Source of the DNA: Dehalococcoidia bacterium
GTDB taxonomy: Bacteria; Chloroflexota; Dehalococcoidia; SpSt-223
Length of the DNA stretch: 64,000 bases
Direction of reading: 5' to 3'
Assembly: GCA_026003895.1 (NCBI GenBank)
Contig: BPIC01000001.1
Coordinates: 124,001-188,000, forward strand
A program made the position numbers and the translations under genes. Positions 55,041-62,930 of this stretch are shown here, one piece after another; the first letter of the stretch is position 1, and the number at the start of each line of letters is the position of its first letter. The notes beneath the pieces were generated by a model. It saw only the letters and a program-made list of their open reading frames with translations, ran no database searches and was not told where the DNA came from.

Positions 55041-56087
55041 ATGCACGGAGACGGATGGCTCTTTGGCGCTGGCCCACCGGGGCGGTGGGACGACCAAAAG
55101 GTGTCGTGCCCCGTCGTTCTTCGCGAAGGCGGCGGTTTTCGGATGTGGTACTACGGCCACGATCGGACATTTCCCGGCCTCGGCCCGGAAACAACCGGTG
55201 TGCCGATGGGACGCAGCGGCACGGCCATCTCCGCGGATGGGCTCGTCTGGCAGCGGCAGGACGGGCCCGGCGTGCGTGGCGCGGTGCTCGATCCATCGGA
55301 CGATCCCGCGGCCTTTGACGCCTGGCAGGTCGGCATCACCGATGCCCATCGCGTCGGCGACGAGTATTGGATCGGCTACATGGGCGCCCCGCAGAGCTCG
55401 ATCGAGTTGCTGGGGATGGTGCGCAAGGGCTATCCGCTCCGTGCCGGCTTGGCGAAGGGCGACGGACTGCGGCTGACCAAGATCCGTGGCGACGCCGGCG
55501 GCGGCGCGACGCTGGCGAATGGGGCGCCCGGCGCATGGGACGCTTGGTATGTCTCGTGCCCGCGGATGGTTCCCATTGCCGGTGGCTGGCGCCTGTATTA
55601 CCACGGCCGCGGTCCGAGCGTCCACGGCGCAGTCGGTCTCGCCGAGGGGCCGGACGGCATCCATTGGGAGAAGCGGGGTCAGGTCTTCGGGCCGAACCCA
55701 AAGCCGGGGCACTTCGATTCGCTCGGCATCCTCAGTCGCCATGTTGTCCCCGTCGAGGGTGGCTGGGCAATGTTCTACGAAGCGATGTCCGACGCGCCAG
55801 TCGCGCCCTACACCTATTCGCGCATTGGGCTAGCCTTCTCGCCGGATGGGCTGCGCTGGGAACGTCTGCCCGGCCCCGGGGCGGGCGGTTGCATACTGGA
55901 TGTTGGTCCGCCCGGCGCGTGGGACGCCCTCGCCATCGGCACCCCTTGGGCGGTTGATCTGGGGAATGGGCGCTGGCGCTTGTATTACGTCGGCTACGAC
56001 GCGCGAAGCGTTGCTGCGATCGGCGTGGCGGAAGCGGATGGGCGCGACCTCACGCGCTGGACGAAGCTGCCTACCGCGCGAACTTAG
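55041..56087 (+). CDS. GH43-like five-bladed beta-propeller protein
   Basis: Protein of 348 aa, probably a cytoplasmic glycosidase or phosphorylase relative. Blade-like repeats include KVSCPVVLREGGGFRMWYYGH, AWQVGITDAHRVGDEYWIGYMG, WYVSCPRMVPIAGGWRLYYHG, HVVPVEGGWAMFYEAM and GTPWAVDLGNGRWRLYYVG. These are typical of the GH43/GH32/GH130 clan, with an acidic residue near the start (DDQKV) as a possible base. No signal peptide. GGAGAGGAG before the ATG at 55041 sets the start. It diverges from the DUF6282 gene and overlaps the CMD-family gene by four bases at its end. Substrate unknown. Confidence 0.7.
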   Translation: MHGDGWLFGAGPPGRWDDQKVSCPVVLREGGGFRMWYYGHDRTFPGLGPETTGVPMGRSGTAISADGLVWQRQDGPGVRGAVLDPSDDPAAFDAWQVGITDAHRVGDEYWIGYMGAPQSSIELLGMVRKGYPLRAGLAKGDGLRLTKIRGDAGGGATLANGAPGAWDAWYVSCPRMVPIAGGWRLYYHGRGPSVHGAVGLAEGPDGIHWEKRGQVFGPNPKPGHFDSLGILSRHVVPVEGGWAMFYEAMSDAPVAPYTYSRIGLAFSPDGLRWERLPGPGAGGCILDVGPPGAWDALAIGTPWAVDLGNGRWRLYYVGYDARSVAAIGVAEADGRDLTRWTKLPTART

Positions 56088-56665
56088 CCGCCTGCGGCCC
56101 AGCCGCCCGCTTGGCCATGACCAGGGAAGGGGCAATAGTCTTCTCGTTCGCCGAGGTCGAAGGCGAACAACAGCTTTGCCATGCCGGTCAACACCGCGCA
56201 CACCACAGCGATCTCCATGATCTGGCCGTCGGTATATTCGGCTTGCAGCCGCGCCAGCAGGTCGTCGTCCACCGGGCCATCCGGCGTCGCGTTCGACAGC
56301 AACGTCGCCAAGTCGAGCGCCGCTTTCTCGCCCGGGCTAAATGGCCCTCGCTCGTAATTCCAGAGCGCGTCGATCTCCTCGTCGCTAATCCCTGCCCGTC
56401 TCGCCGAGACGGTATTTGAGCGGTTTCAGGAGGCGCAGCCGTGCAGGTTGCTGAGCCGCAGCCGCACCAACTCCTTTACCCGGCGGGGCGCGATGCCGTT
56501 GAAGAACAGCCCACCGTAAAAGTGATCGAAGTAAAACTCGGCGACGTTGGGCGCGTTGGCGACCACTTCGAGGAAGCGCGGCTCATTGCCGTTGGCCCGC
56601 GAGGCGTCCCACATCCGGGCAAGCCGCCCGGACAACTCTTCGCGTGTACGGTGACGAAGCGCCAT
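56084..56665 (-). CDS. AhpD/carboxymuconolactone decarboxylase family protein with in-frame TGA at the CxxC motif (candidate selenoprotein)
   Basis: Reading through one TGA (56428-56426) gives a continuous 193-residue protein. Codons 1-79 start at the ATG at 56665 (AGGAGG site upstream) and end VKELVRLRLSNLHGCAS. Codon 80 is TGA, exactly where AhpD/CMD proteins have the second Cys of CxxC. Codons 81-193 continue in the same frame with family sequence: NRSNTVSARRAGISDEEID, FSPGEKAALDLA, YTDGQIMEIAVVCAVLTGMAK, REDYCPF. A SECIS-like hairpin follows the TGA. The family performs thiol-based peroxide reduction or decarboxylation. It is the last gene of the alaS-ruvX-mltG operon, 16 bases after mltG. 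Alternatives are a Cys-to-stop pseudogene or a sequencing error. Confidence 0.75.
56396..56412 (-). promoter_or_regulatory. Putative bacterial SECIS hairpin
   Basis: On the minus strand CCGTCTC (56412-56406), loop GGC and GAGACGG (56402-56396) form a perfect 7-bp stem. It starts 13 nt after the TGA, so the apical loop lies 21 nt downstream and opens with G. These values fit the known bacterial SECIS rule of a stem-loop with G among the first two loop bases, 16-37 nt after UGA. Confidence 0.6.
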
Positions 56666-56681
56666 CTCTTCCCTCCTGACG

Positions 56682-57761
56682 CTACCGTTGGTAGCGCGCG
56701 ACGTTGGCATTATGCTCAGCGAGCGTTCGGGCGAAGGCGTGCGAGCCATCCGGTCTGGCGACGAAATACAGATAGTCGACGTCGGCCGGCGCGGCGACTG
56801 CGCGGAGCGCACCAAGCCCGGGATTGCAGATTGGACCGGGCGGCAGCCCGGTCACTCGATAGGTGTTGTACGGGGAATCGATGGCGAGATCCTGGACGGT
56901 CAGGTCCTTCTTCCAGTAACCGTCGCGGGCGCGGCGCACCGGGTCCTGTGCAAGGGCAAATTGGACCGTTGGGTCGGCCTGCAGGGGCATGCCGAGCCGC
57001 AGCCGGTTCAAGAAGACGGCCGCGATGATCGGCTGCTCCTCGGGTTTCACCGCCTCGCGCTCGACAATCGAGGCCAGCGTGAGCGCTTGATGCGGCGTCA
57101 GCCCGCGCGCCGCAACCGCCGCCCGCAACTCGGGCGTGAAGGCCACGTCAAGTTGGCGGAGCATCACGTTCAGCGCTTCGGCGGGCGTCACCTCGCGCGA
57201 GACGCGGTAGGTTTCGGGAAAGAGGTAGCCTTCGAGCGACTGACCGGCGGGACGGGCGGCCGCGAGCGATCCAGCGGGCGGAGCGGTGGTCAGCTGCGCG
57301 AGCGCCGCCGCGAGGGCAGCATCGCTGCCGACCCCCTGCTTCTCCAGCGCGACCAACACCTCCGGCACCTGCCACCCCTCTGGGACGGTGAAGGTACGCA
57401 GCCGCACCTCGCCGCGCGCGAATTTTTCGAGAATGGCACGGCTGGTCATGTCGCGGCTGAGCTCGTACTGGCCGCTCTGGATCGCGGTGCCGAGGCCGGA
57501 GGAACTCGCGAGATAGCGAAAGACGCGCTCGTCATTGATCAGCCCCTGTTCCTTCAACCGGCGGGCGATCGTCCCGGCATCATCGCCGGGCTCGACCGTG
57601 AACTCGACTGGCGTCGGGTCGAGGGCGACCGGCCGATCGAGCAGCTCGACAACTCCCCCAAGGCCGGCTTCGGTGGACACCATCGGGACCACCGCGGCGG
57701 TCACACAGGCGCAGAGGGCAAGGACGGCGACCGCGAGGCTGCCAACGAGAATGCGCCCCAT
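56682..57761 (-). CDS. mltG: Endolytic murein transglycosylase MltG
   Basis: Inner-membrane lytic transglycosylase (YceG-like) of 359 aa that ends growing glycan strands. One N-terminal span (ILVGSLAVAVLALCACV) is followed by a LysM-like part with EPGDDAGTIARRLKEQGLI. The catalytic domain has SLEGYLFPETY, LASIVEREA (catalytic Glu near 234-236), MPLQADPTVQFAL and SPYNTYRVTGLPPGPI. The ATG shares one base with the ruvX stop, so they are coupled. Confidence 0.95.
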   Translation of the reverse strand: MGRILVGSLAVAVLALCACVTAAVVPMVSTEAGLGGVVELLDRPVALDPTPVEFTVEPGDDAGTIARRLKEQGLINDERVFRYLASSSGLGTAIQSGQYELSRDMTSRAILEKFARGEVRLRTFTVPEGWQVPEVLVALEKQGVGSDAALAAALAQLTTAPPAGSLAAARPAGQSLEGYLFPETYRVSREVTPAEALNVMLRQLDVAFTPELRAAVAARGLTPHQALTLASIVEREAVKPEEQPIIAAVFLNRLRLGMPLQADPTVQFALAQDPVRRARDGYWKKDLTVQDLAIDSPYNTYRVTGLPPGPICNPGLGALRAVAAPADVDYLYFVARPDGSHAFARTLAEHNANVARYQR

Positions 57762-58192
57762 CAGTCTCCTGCATCACGAAAATGGAGATCAGCAAGGAAG
57801 CTTTCGAGGAGGACGGCCGCCGCCTCGGCATCGTCAGGACCGCCGCGCCGGCGGCCGGCGCGGCGCTGCTGCGCCTCCCAAGTGGTATAGCGCTCATCGT
57901 GCAACCGTACGGGGAGCGACGTCGCCGCCGCCAGTCGGCGGGCGAAGCGCTCGGCCTTGTCGGTCTGCTCGGTGCGCGCCCCGTCGTCACGGATCGGCAG
58001 CCCGACGACGATACCAGCCACGCCCTCGCGCTCGGCGAGCGCGACAATGGCGGGAATATCGACCTTCCGGCCGGCGGCCGGAAGAACGGCAAGCGGCGTG
58101 GCGATGACGCCCAGCTCGTCCGACACCGCCAGTCCGATCCGCCGGTCGCCCACGTCCACCGCCAGCCAGCGTCCGACCCGCTTAGCTCCCAA
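57761..58192 (-). CDS. ruvX: Holliday junction resolvase-like YqgF/RuvX
   Basis: RNase H-fold nuclease of 143 aa, linked to pre-16S rRNA processing and sometimes called a Holliday junction resolvase. Motifs: AVDVGDRRIGLAVSD (first Asp at 13), VVGLPIRDDGARTEQ, HDERYTTWEAQ and DDAEAAAVLLESFL, so the acidic triad is complete. The TTG start at 58192 overlaps the upstream gene by 11 bases and follows GAGG. It sits in the alaS operon, as in many bacteria. Confidence 0.92.
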   Translation of the reverse strand: MGAKRVGRWLAVDVGDRRIGLAVSDELGVIATPLAVLPAAGRKVDIPAIVALAEREGVAGIVVGLPIRDDGARTEQTDKAERFARRLAAATSLPVRLHDERYTTWEAQQRRAGRRRGGPDDAEAAAVLLESFLADLHFRDAGD

Positions 58193-59702
58193 CGATCCTC
58201 AAGTCGAGCCGCTGCGTCAATCGCGGCAGCCAGGGAGAGGCGCTCGGCCAGACCCGAATCTCCGGCGGGCGACGAAGCGGCACGACCGACGCGAGGTAGT
58301 CTTCAGCCTGCCCCACCGACTGGCCAGCGATTGCCGATTTGATCTGATTTTCGTTGATTTGGGGGATCGCCAAATAGGTGACCCCCAAGTTGAAGGTGAC
58401 GGCATCGTCGTCAAAGCCAACAAGCCCGAGAGGAGCGACCGACAAACTGCCGGGGAGCACTTGCTGACCCGCCGGAAGCTGGGCCCGCGCCGTGCGCTGG
58501 CCCAACTCGAGCACGTCGTCCGAGGTAAAGGCAATCGCCGATACCCGCGCTCGCGCCTTGATGGTAACCGTGCTCGCTTCTTCATCAAGCAGTCGGTCGA
58601 AGGTCTCCTCGACGACTGTCACCTGAACGGTCTCGCGGTAGATCGACTCGTTCTGCCGTTTGATGTCAAACAACTGGGCATAGCCAGCGGCGCGCAGCTT
58701 CTCGATGATCGATTGGCGCAGCCGGTTGCGGTCGGCAAGCGTCACGTAGGGCGTGTCGCTCTGTGCGCCACCGGTCGCGGGTTGTTCGTTGACAACGGCC
58801 GCCCGACTGTTCAACGTTCCGTCTGAGAAGGCGGTGATTGTCCGCGCTGCGACGTTGCCGGAGACGCCCGCTTCGACCGCCGTCACACCCACTTGCACCG
58901 AGGAGCTAGAGGCAGGCACCGTCACGGCCTCATCGAGCGCAAACTGAACGTTGCCAAGCGTCCGGACGGTCGCCCCGCGTGGGATGGTGAACTGGCCATT
59001 CTCTTGGGGATTGCGGTTGGTGATTGTGACGCGCGTCTTGGCGCGCTCCGTCGGCGTCGACTTCTTGCCGGTTGCCTCAGTGGTGTCGGTCGCTTCGGCC
59101 TCCGCCGTCACGAGCCGGCCAGCGATCGTCCGCTGCTCGGGATTGACGCCGCGTGCTTGACGAGACGCCTTCACCGTGAGCGCCTCGGTGACTGGGGTGG
59201 CAACGGGCGCAAGCTCGACCGTGGCGCTCGGCACGACCACCGCCGCGACGGCGAGGGTGGCGAGCAGGACAAGCCCGAGTAGCACACCGGCGGCGACCAT
59301 CCCGGCAGTCGAAACCGCCGGTAGCGAGAACGATCGCGAGGGCGATTTGAAGCTCGCCCCTTTGACGGAGCCGGCGACACGGAAGCCTTCGGCCCGGGCG
59401 AGCCGGCGCACTTCGCCGTCTTCGGCAACGATCGCCACTTCGCGCGCCGACTGGCGGGCATAGCGGCGCAGCAATTTCAGCCGCACAGGATTGCGCAGCA
59501 GCTTGGCGCTGCGCGGCACCAACAGCACAACCCGCCGACTCTCGGCTTGGTCCAGCTTCTCGCGGAGCGAGCCGATGTCGTCGTCCGGGTCCATCTGGAT
59601 GACGCTCGGCTCGCTGGAGCTTTGTCCGGTGAGCAGCGGCTCGTCCGGACCGTTGAGATACGGTTGGGTGGAGCCGCGACTGGCGCCGGACCTGGTGGTC
59701 AT
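58182..59702 (-). CDS. Baseplate J/gp47-like membrane protein
   Basis: Protein of 506 aa. The N-terminal 130 residues are cytosolic and contain a Rossmann-like start (IGSLREKLDQAESRRVVLLVP). A single span lies at about 145-170 (GMVAAGVLLGLVLLATLAVAAVV). The external part is beta-rich, with NPQENGQFTIPRGATVRT and VTAVEAGVSGNVAARTITAF, which match the Baseplate_J fold seen in phage tails and in a family of non-phage membrane proteins of Chloroflexota and Gram-positives. No phage genes are near. The ATG overlaps the alaS stop by four bases (ATGA). Function unknown. Confidence 0.75.
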   Translation of the reverse strand: MTTRSGASRGSTQPYLNGPDEPLLTGQSSSEPSVIQMDPDDDIGSLREKLDQAESRRVVLLVPRSAKLLRNPVRLKLLRRYARQSAREVAIVAEDGEVRRLARAEGFRVAGSVKGASFKSPSRSFSLPAVSTAGMVAAGVLLGLVLLATLAVAAVVVPSATVELAPVATPVTEALTVKASRQARGVNPEQRTIAGRLVTAEAEATDTTEATGKKSTPTERAKTRVTITNRNPQENGQFTIPRGATVRTLGNVQFALDEAVTVPASSSSVQVGVTAVEAGVSGNVAARTITAFSDGTLNSRAAVVNEQPATGGAQSDTPYVTLADRNRLRQSIIEKLRAAGYAQLFDIKRQNESIYRETVQVTVVEETFDRLLDEEASTVTIKARARVSAIAFTSDDVLELGQRTARAQLPAGQQVLPGSLSVAPLGLVGFDDDAVTFNLGVTYLAIPQINENQIKSAIAGQSVGQAEDYLASVVPLRRPPEIRVWPSASPWLPRLTQRLDLRIVGS

Positions 59703-62359
59703 CGCGTTTGCACCGCCCGACGCGCCGCCCGGAGCGCCTCGTCGATCTTGCTGGGGTCTTTGCCGCCGGCTTGGGCGAGCTCGGGCCGGCCGCCGCCACC
59801 GCCCCCCGCTATGACGGCCGCCTGGCGGACGATCTCTCCAGCATGATACCCCGCGGCGACCAGATCCGGGGTCACGGCGGCGATGAACTGCGGGCGCTCG
59901 CCGATCTGCGCTCCGAGCACGATCACCGCGCTCTTGAGCCGATCGCGCAGCCAATCGGCCATCTCGCGCAGCGCCTCCGGACGGGACACATTGACGCGCG
60001 ACGCGAGCACGGTGACTCCATTCACTGGCTCGGCGCGCTGGACGAGCGCCTCGATCTCGCGGCGCGCCAACTCACGCTCGAGCTGCTCGATGCGTCGCCG
60101 CTCGGCGTTCAACTCGGCCTGAAGCCCGGAGACGCGCGCCTCGACCTCCAGCGGCGGCGCCTTGAGCAATCGCGCGAGGCTCTCCACGGTGCCGATCCGC
60201 TCCAGAATGACGTCTTCGGCAGCCGGCCCGGTCAGCGCCTCAATCCGCCGGATGCCCGACCCGACGCTTCCCTCTGAGACAATGATGAACGGGCCGATCT
60301 CGCCGGTCCGCTCGCAATGCGTGCCTCCACAAAGCTCGAGGCTGGCGCAAGGCACGCCAACCTCCAACTCTTCCTCGGGAGGCCGCCGGATGCAGACCGT
60401 GCGAACGGTGTCGCCATACTTCTCACCAAACAGCGCCATCGCACCAGCGGCGATCGCCTCGTCGTAGCGGGCGTACGCCGGCGTGACTGGCAGATCCTCG
60501 TAAATCCGGCGCGTCACCAGCCGCTGGATTTCTCGCAGTTCTTCAGTCGAGACCGGCGCAAGGTGGGTGAAGTCGAAGCGCAGCCGGTCCGGCGCGACCA
60601 GCGAGCCGGCTTGGCGGGCGTGCGGACCGAGCACCTCCTGCAGCGCAGCGTGGAGCAGGTGGGTCGCGGTGTGATTTCGCTTGATGTTCGCCCGGCGCGG
60701 ACCATCAACCGCCAGTCGTGCTTCTTGGCCAACCGCAAGGAAGCCGGATTGGACCAGCGCCCGGTGAACGATGATCTCCGGCGCGGGCCGCTGAGTATCG
60801 AGCACCTCGGCGGCACCGGTCTCCGTCCGCACGGTTCCCGTGTCGCCGACTTGGCCGCCACCCTCGGGATAAAAGGGCGTTTCGCGCACCAAGAGTTCGA
60901 TCTCTTGTCCCTCGGCAGCGGCATCGACCGGCTCGCCGGCGAGGAGGATGGCGACGATCGGCGAGGTGTGAACCAGCCGGTCGTAGCCGACGAAGCGGAG
61001 TTCCGGCAGATCGAGGGCGTGGAACCGCTCTCCACCGGCGCCACGAAAGCGGGCGCCCGCCTTCGACTGCTCCCGCTGGCGGGCCAAGGCCGCCTCAAAG
61101 GCGGCGGAGTCGACCGTGAATCCGTGCTCGGCCGCGACCTCCTCCGTGAGCTCGCGCGGGAAGCCGAAGGTGTCATAGAGCCGAAAGGCGTCCTCACCTT
61201 CGATTATGGTGCGGCCTTCGCGGCGGGCGGCGGCCATCAGCGTATCGAGCAGTTGCAGACCGGCGGCAAGCGTCCGGCCAAACCGCTCCTCTTCGAGCTC
61301 GATGACCCGGCGCACAAAATCGCGCCGCTTCCGCAGCTCGGGATACGCCCCGGCCATTCGGTCGACCACGGCGTCGGCGACTTCGGCAAGGAACGGCCCC
61401 TCGAGGCCGAGCTTGCGCCCGAATCGCACTGCCCGCCGCAAGATTCGGCGCAGCACATACCCCCGCCATTCGTTGCTTGGCAAGACGCCGTCGCTAATCA
61501 GGAAGGTGCAAGCGCGGGCATGGTCGGCGATCACGCGGAAAGGAAAGCCTGCCTCGCCGGGGTCGTAGCGCCGGCCGGAGAGCGCCTCGACGCGGCGGAT
61601 GATCGGTTGGAAGAGGTCGGTATCCCAGTTGGTCTCGACGTTCTGGACGATCGAGGCGATGCGTTCGAGCCCCATCCCAGTGTCGATCGATGGCTTCGGC
61701 AACGGCGAGAGCACCCCGGAGGGGTCGCGGTCGTACTGCATGAACACGAGGTTCCAGAACTCGAGCCAGCGGTCGCAATCGCAGCGGCCAATCCCGCAGT
61801 CGGGACCACAGGCTCGCTCCGCCCCGCGGTCGAAGTGAATCTCCGACGAGGGACCTTGCGGCCCGGTGTCGGCCATCGCCCACCAATTGTCCTTCTCGCC
61901 AAGGCGGACGATCCGCTCGGCGGGCAACCCGGCGATCCGTGCCCACAATTCAGCCGCTTCGTCGTCGTCGCGGAAGACCGTTACCCACAGCCGTGTCGGG
62001 TCGAGGCCGAGCTCACTCGTGACAAACTCCCAGGCGAACCGGATGGCGTCCTCTTTAAAGTAATCGCCGAAGGAGAAATTGCCGAGCATCTCGAAGAACG
62101 TGTGGTGGCGAGCGGTGCGGCCAACGTTGTCAAGGTCGTTATGCTTGCCGCCGGCGCGGACACAGCGTTGGACGCTCGTTGCCCGGCGATAGGGTCGCTC
62201 CTCGAGGCCGAGGAAGACGTCTTTGAACTGGACCATGCCGGCGTTGGTGAACAGCAGGGTTGGGTCGTTGCCCGGGACAAGGGAGGAACTCGGGACGCGT
62301 GTATGCCCGTGGCGCTCGAAATAGCGCAAAAACGATTCGCGGATCTCGTCGCTGGTCAC
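59699..62359 (-). CDS. alaS: Alanine-tRNA ligase
   Basis: Class II synthetase of 886 aa. TSDEIRESFLRYFERHGH begins right after a GTG at 62359 preceded by GAGGG; in-frame codons further upstream are not family-like. The catalytic core has HHTFFEMLGNFSFGDYFK and GMGLERIASI. The editing domain has HTATHLLHAAL and CGGTHCERTGEIG, and the C-terminal oligomerisation domain is present. First gene of the operon through the baseplate J-like gene, ruvX, mltG and the AhpD/CMD gene. Confidence 0.97.
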   Translation of the reverse strand: MTSDEIRESFLRYFERHGHTRVPSSSLVPGNDPTLLFTNAGMVQFKDVFLGLEERPYRRATSVQRCVRAGGKHNDLDNVGRTARHHTFFEMLGNFSFGDYFKEDAIRFAWEFVTSELGLDPTRLWVTVFRDDDEAAELWARIAGLPAERIVRLGEKDNWWAMADTGPQGPSSEIHFDRGAERACGPDCGIGRCDCDRWLEFWNLVFMQYDRDPSGVLSPLPKPSIDTGMGLERIASIVQNVETNWDTDLFQPIIRRVEALSGRRYDPGEAGFPFRVIADHARACTFLISDGVLPSNEWRGYVLRRILRRAVRFGRKLGLEGPFLAEVADAVVDRMAGAYPELRKRRDFVRRVIELEEERFGRTLAAGLQLLDTLMAAARREGRTIIEGEDAFRLYDTFGFPRELTEEVAAEHGFTVDSAAFEAALARQREQSKAGARFRGAGGERFHALDLPELRFVGYDRLVHTSPIVAILLAGEPVDAAAEGQEIELLVRETPFYPEGGGQVGDTGTVRTETGAAEVLDTQRPAPEIIVHRALVQSGFLAVGQEARLAVDGPRRANIKRNHTATHLLHAALQEVLGPHARQAGSLVAPDRLRFDFTHLAPVSTEELREIQRLVTRRIYEDLPVTPAYARYDEAIAAGAMALFGEKYGDTVRTVCIRRPPEEELEVGVPCASLELCGGTHCERTGEIGPFIIVSEGSVGSGIRRIEALTGPAAEDVILERIGTVESLARLLKAPPLEVEARVSGLQAELNAERRRIEQLERELARREIEALVQRAEPVNGVTVLASRVNVSRPEALREMADWLRDRLKSAVIVLGAQIGERPQFIAAVTPDLVAAGYHAGEIVRQAAVIAGGGGGGRPELAQAGGKDPSKIDEALRAARRAVQTR

Positions 62360-62480
62360 TTGCACGCACCCTCGCGGTGACTCGCCGAACGCGCCGTGCG
62401 CTGACCGAGCGGCCGGCGCTCGCCGAAGGGCACCGAGGACGACGGCCGGCGATGCCGTGGCCGAGCGGAAAGGGCCGGGG

Positions 62481-62508
62481 TTGACGTCAGGTTGCCTCAT
62501 TCTACAAT
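62481..62508 (+). promoter_or_regulatory. Promoter of the ridA-glmU-like operon
   Basis: TTGACG (62481-62486), a 16-nt spacer and TACAAT (62503-62508), both five of six to consensus. The predicted start is about 30 bases before the ridA GTG. Confidence 0.7.
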
Positions 62509-62546: not shown

Positions 62547-62930
62547 GTGGACCGCCAGATCATCGCCACCGCCGCTGCGCCGGCCGCCATCGGGCCGTAT
62601 TCGCAGGCCGTCGGCTGGGACCGCCTGATCTTTCTTTCCGGCCAGATTCCGCTCGACCCGGCCACCGGACAACTCGTTGACGGCGGCATCGAAGCGCAGA
62701 CGCGCCGGGTGATGGAAAATCTCCGCGCCGTGCTCGCTGCCGCCGGCCTCGAGCTCGCCAATGTCGTCCGAACGACGATCTTCCTCGCCGATCTCGATGA
62801 CTTCGCAGCGGTGAACGCCGTCTACGGGGAGTACTTTCCCAGCGATCCCCCGGCGCGCTCGACGGTCCAGGTCGCTCGACTGCCCCGCGACGCGCGGGTC
62901 GAGATCGACGCGATCGCGGTCCGCCCGTGA
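62547..62930 (+). CDS. ridA: RidA family enamine/imine deaminase
   Basis: Trimeric RidA/YjgF protein of 127 aa that hydrolyses reactive enamine and imine intermediates of amino-acid metabolism. Motifs are AAIGPYSQAVGWDRLIFLSGQIPLDP, GGIEAQTRRVMENLRAVLAAAG and PARSTVQVARLPRDARVEIDAIA, which contains the substrate-carboxylate Arg. GTG at 62547 matches the family N-terminus and follows GAGGA. Its stop overlaps the next start (GTGA), so the genes are coupled. Confidence 0.94.
   Translation: MDRQIIATAAAPAAIGPYSQAVGWDRLIFLSGQIPLDPATGQLVDGGIEAQTRRVMENLRAVLAAAGLELANVVRTTIFLADLDDFAAVNAVYGEYFPSDPPARSTVQVARLPRDARVEIDAIAVRP

Follow-up and report, generated by a model that had tools for sequence, protein, structure and literature searches.

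A likely CMD/AhpD-fold selenoprotein with a conserved hairpin after its UGA codon in a Dehalococcoidia bacterium

In a 64,000-nucleotide stretch from a Dehalococcoidia bacterium (assembly GCA_026003895.1, contig BPIC01000001.1, positions 124,001 to 188,000; hereafter the window), we identified a gene of the CMD family whose reading frame contains one TGA, at codon 80. This UGA is likely decoded as selenocysteine (Sec or U), giving a predicted Cys77-Ala-Ser-Sec80 redox site. The reading is supported by the conserved codon, a conserved hairpin following it, the presence of Sec machinery genes, Cys-containing homologues, and the modelled fold. Taken as a whole, a CMD-family selenoprotein with hairpin-driven decoding of UGA80 and with redox chemistry carried out by Cys77 and Sec80 is, in our judgment, very probably the right explanation. 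Selenoproteins of the CMD/AhpD-like type with a CxxU site are already known, and the gene is a further one, belonging to a subfamily that the NCBIfam models do not name and that has an unusual active site.

Reading Frame and Annotation

The frame lies on the minus strand, which a preliminary description of this DNA had not stated, and has 79 codons before and 113 codons after the TGA, the latter standing in the context H75-G-C77-A-S-TGA (Table 1). The match to the Pfam CMD model (PF02627) runs over the TGA, covering residues 45 to 120 with 49.4 bits against a cutoff of 23. A plus-strand frame across the same stretch likewise contains one TGA and was put aside in view of the minus-strand family match. 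Ordinary open reading frame (ORF) calling gives one piece that stops with the TGA plus a distinct 75-aa ORF with a TTG start (56084–56311), and the protein database holds a 79-aa entry for the locus (P0081). The single in-frame TGA and the split annotation are thus as the preliminary description had them.

The same description took TGA for a normal stop in this genome, and indeed alaS, ruvX, and an NTP-transferase gene at 62927 all end in TGA. This speaks against reassignment of UGA to another amino acid, and the recurrence of the same TGA across independent genomes (see below) tells against a sequencing error; we found no point supporting either explanation and regard both as practically negligible. 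Among the 1,407 TGAs of the window (both strands), 9 have a perfect stem of at least seven pairs near the distance expected of a selenocysteine insertion sequence (SECIS), and among those 9 the codon-80 TGA alone is flanked by long open frames on both sides.

Conservation of the TGA Codon and Selection Beyond It

A first set of 60 genomes, the own genome included, gave matches in 21 at an E value of 1e-3, and both congeners carry the same TGA (G002 with 81% and G001 with 77% identity). A class-wide set of 294 genomes, again including the own, gave matches in 11 at 1e-12; one of these genomes, G139, carries a pair of paralogues (identities of 54% and 46% across the matched stretch), each showing TGA at the aligned position. 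In the first, class-level set of loci, 28 of 30 could be aligned and U was found at the column in ten distinct genes, those of the three congeners included. A protein search with the 79-aa N-terminal piece returned six proteins, the own entry among them, all 79 aa long and all ending in HGCAS; as the length limits of this search exclude full-length Cys forms, it shows a shared end point and not a Sec-to-Cys ratio. One entry (P0085) is the G002 piece and another (P0086) is similar to the G001 piece without being identical to it, leaving P0082 to P0084 as three clearly further sequences. Source names are attached to two of the six entries and read Dehalococcoidia or Chloroflexota. A scan of contigs confirmed one locus (L057), on contig JAILZB010000181.1 of a Chloroflexi metagenome-assembled genome, which has the same sequence as the G001 contig and therefore adds no species.

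Decay past the TGA in relatives, which the preliminary description had named as grounds for abandoning the Sec reading, was looked for, and strong purifying selection was found instead. The ratios of nonsynonymous to synonymous substitution rates (dN/dS) for the three congener pairs were 0.15, 0.21, and 0.18 before the TGA and 0.10, 0.10, and 0.16 after it, and the low downstream values indicate that the part past the TGA evolves like translated protein. The codon falls on the second Cys of the CxxC motif, the position of a Cys-to-Sec exchange, as had been proposed: among 78 full-length homologues, column 80 is Cys in 77 and Arg in one (P0003). These observations bear on the explanation of a broken gene, in which translation would truly stop at the TGA and the C-terminal half would be a remnant or separate ORF. 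The annotation does split the frame, and the own assembly lacks selB. The selection past the TGA contradicts a broken gene, and the codon being shared by three species, by both G139 paralogues, and by several entries of the database speaks against it, as does the Cys found in 77 of the 78 homologues at exactly codon 80; we hold a broken gene to be very unlikely.

Further CMD-family genes from the class and the phylum (L024, L025, L026, L031, L036, L042, L044, L052, and L054) likewise have TGA at this column, as do CMD-family loci among L078 to L106. The motifs of the other TGA-bearing CMD-family genes include CPFU, CHNU, CHYU, CRYU, CVHU, and CGYU.

The Hairpin after the UGA

The preliminary description had called for a SECIS search at 56380–56430, and a conserved 7-bp hairpin was found there, CCGTCTC-GGC-GAGACGG, whose sequence fits a bacterial SECIS. 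The stem is CCGCCTC/GAGGCGG in G001 and CCGCTTC/GAAGCGG in the second G139 paralogue. Across five Sec genes, all 35 cells of the stem alignment pair, and two of the seven pairs are changed on both sides in a compensatory manner; slid versions of the alignment reach 40 to 60% pairing. The covariation score was matched in 11 of 500 shuffles, and a perfect stem of at least seven pairs arose in 29 of 5,000 synonymous resamplings. The stem makes use of an AGA codon, which accounts for 1 of the 154 Arg codons across alaS, mltG, and ruvX.

More distant loci were drawn from a phylum set of 400 genomes, of which 60 matched at 1e-15 with 63 matches in total, the own included; the hairpin comparison is based on 29 of the 62 nonown matches. 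The column holds U in 23 of these loci and C in 6, and a stem of seven pairs follows 18 of the 23 U codons vs. none of the 6 C codons, though the loci are not independent, as a single genus supplies five of the six C loci and the U loci are clustered, too.

Selenocysteine Machinery

The own genome encodes SelA (466.9 bits), SelD (402.6 bits), and a tRNA-Sec (selC) with the anticodon TCA (69.9 bits). tRNA-Sec is also present in G001, G002, and G139, and selB scores over its cutoff in all five other genomes tested, both congeners among them. In the selD of the own genome (L018, C3:276238-277164), the codon where Sec or Cys usually stands (HGAG-U) is an in-frame TGA, and a strong hairpin comes after it; by its sequence, this SelD is likely a selenoprotein, too.

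Several observations weigh against the Sec reading or against parts of it. While selA, selC, and selD were found in the search for selABCD that the preliminary description had called for, selB was not: the seven matches to TIGR00475 (L011 to L017) in the own assembly (80.5% complete) are all below the cutoff. For the gene adjoining selB in both congeners, the own genome offers only a 27% match, which fits the absence of the selB block from the assembly without proving it. Within the hairpin, doubly changed pairs were matched in 73 of 500 shuffles and pair types in all 500, as five sequences hold little covariation, and among the distant U loci, 5 of 23 have stems shorter than seven pairs. The folding energy is ordinary, with 38.8% of the 1,407 TGA sites and 265 of 1,000 resamplings being as low, and the case for a SECIS thus rests on the length, place, and conservation of the stem and on the contrast between U and C loci. 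Finally, two of the five residues of the AhpD relay are missing, which makes peroxidase action a guess.

Three of the seven TIGR00475 matches were inspected and rejected, their sequences being presumably EF-Tu-like (L011), LepA-like (L013), and TypA-like (L014). The last of these frames, of a TypA-like GTPase, lies at the end of contig C8 and seems to continue in another frame, perhaps owing to an assembly error.

Family Identity and Active Site

The proton relay of AhpD is reported to consist of Glu118, Cys130, His132, Cys133, and His137 (PMC3141380). The window protein keeps Glu65, Cys77, and U80 at the corresponding positions and has Ser79 and Asn84 at the other two; Asn or Asp occupies column 84 in all 78 homologues. 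Compared with AhpD of Mycobacterium tuberculosis and with PA0269 (2o4d, 2ijc), it has Sec for the second Cys, Ser79 in place of the relay His/Tyr, and Asn84 in place of the relay His. The protein scores slightly under the cutoff of the AhpD core domain model (TIGR00778; 26.2 vs. 27.8 bits) and below those of the peroxidase-related model (TIGR01926; 26.4 vs. 81.8 bits) and the YciW-related (seleno)protein model (NF053654; 47.2 vs. 310 bits), the last being matched by all five Sec genes. These scores and the Ser79/Asn84 exchanges do not support the earlier assignment to AhpD proper.

A Sargasso Sea report of 2005 (PMC1088965) described AhpD-like (27 sequences) and CMD-domain (4 sequences) selenoproteins with CxxU, and two reviews, from 2022 and 2026, include both kinds (PMC9312934, PMC13188914). 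The known AhpD-like (COG2128/YciW, TIGR01926) and CMD-like (PF02627) forms share with the window gene the family, the CxxU motif, and a SECIS-like hairpin; the TIGR01926 and NF053654 scores, a HGCxxUNxxN site, and an invariant Cys178 appear to set it apart. The titles and abstract openings turned up by literature searches on the subfamily do not name it.

In the mechanism that we propose, the hairpin 13 nt after the UGA would recruit SelB carrying Sec-tRNA-Sec, in whose making SelA and SelD would help, and failing SelB-mediated decoding the UGA would end a 79-aa fragment. Sec80 would then attack an oxidised or electrophilic substrate, with peroxide as a first guess from the fold, Cys77 would resolve the intermediate formed at selenium, and the Cys–Sec pair would be reduced by a cellular thiol system; Cys178 is a candidate for a further shuttle. 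A true selenoprotein that is not a peroxidase has to be weighed here, such as a selenol reductase acting on an organic substrate, by analogy with Bmp8, a protein of the AhpD fold that debrominates pyrroles. In the model, the window protein has the same fold and the same place of CxxC as Bmp8 (6ohi, 6ohj), with 17 to 19% identity and with Sec where Bmp8 has Cys. We see such a function as a realistic possibility, if the less probable one. More tentatively still, the genes may represent a selenoenzyme clade, as yet without a name, of Dehalococcoidia-like Chloroflexota that works without the AhpD histidine relay, using HGCxxUNxx[ND] and Cys178 as a Cys–Sec–Cys shuttle on a substrate other than peroxide, and in which P0003 would have replaced Sec by Arg; we regard this combination as rather unlikely.

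The sequence P0003 is the closest database homologue outside the genus. We computed a tree of 52 rows, comprising the 5 Sec genes and 47 of the 78 homologues, with two outgroups; the other 31 homologues, for the most part near-copies, were omitted. The five Sec genes are joined with P0003 (90/98), which stands beside the congeners (92/78), although its placement is unsure, as neither fork reaches the star level of the tool and the branch of P0003 is long. Columns 87 to 90 read Ser-Ala-Arg-Arg in P0003 and in four of the five Sec genes and Ser-Ala-Lys-Arg in the fifth; in most of the Cys rows, column 89 is Leu. It is possible, judging by these residues, that P0003 represents a loss of Sec to Arg, with the Arg-Arg encoded by the SECIS stem left as a relic.

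Genomic Neighborhood

The gene follows alaS, ruvX, and mltG, as previously described, with a Baseplate_J-domain gene between alaS and ruvX (Table 1); the true start of the Baseplate_J ORF is probably later than listed, as it overlaps alaS. All four neighbours are kept in order in G002, and a 7.2-kb contig of G001 retains mltG and ruvX together with the end of the Baseplate-J gene. Around the G139 paralogues, none of the 12 tested neighbours was present besides the paralogues themselves. None of the genes upstream points to a substrate. A promoter and terminator scan gave no promoter-like sites beside the selenoprotein gene and no excess of terminator-like sites over shuffles.

Table 1. Positions within the window of the putative selenoprotein gene, its elements, and its upstream neighbours
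Feature	Position	Strand	Remarks
CMD/AhpD-fold selenoprotein gene (putative)	56084..56665	minus	193 codons read through one TGA; ATG at 56665, stop TAA ending at 56084
TGA codon 80, likely Sec, second-Cys column of CxxC	56426..56428	minus	
Cys77 codon (TGC), partner of codon 80	56435..56437	minus	
SECIS-like hairpin, 7-bp stem and GGC loop	56396..56412	minus	starts 13 nt after the TGA
AGGAGGG, ribosome-binding-site-like, upstream of ATG	56671..56677	minus	
mltG (YceG-like), upstream neighbour	56682..57761	minus	
ruvX, upstream neighbour	57761..58192	minus	
Baseplate_J-domain protein, upstream neighbour	58182..59954	minus	listed ORF
alaS, upstream neighbour	59699..62500	minus	

Implications

Because each of the six database proteins recovered by the N-terminal query stops at the UGA, annotation conceals the Sec form of the subfamily. 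The loci with U and with C at the column form a natural control, the hairpin going with U and being missing with C among the 29 distant phylum loci. The occurrence of U in 23 of those loci and, within the class set, in ten distinct genes suggests a wide use of CMD-type selenoproteins by Chloroflexota; this is a lead only, as the loci represent the top hits of a Sec profile and no fair sample. A selenoenzyme built on the AhpD fold without the AhpD histidines would make the role of the relay testable.
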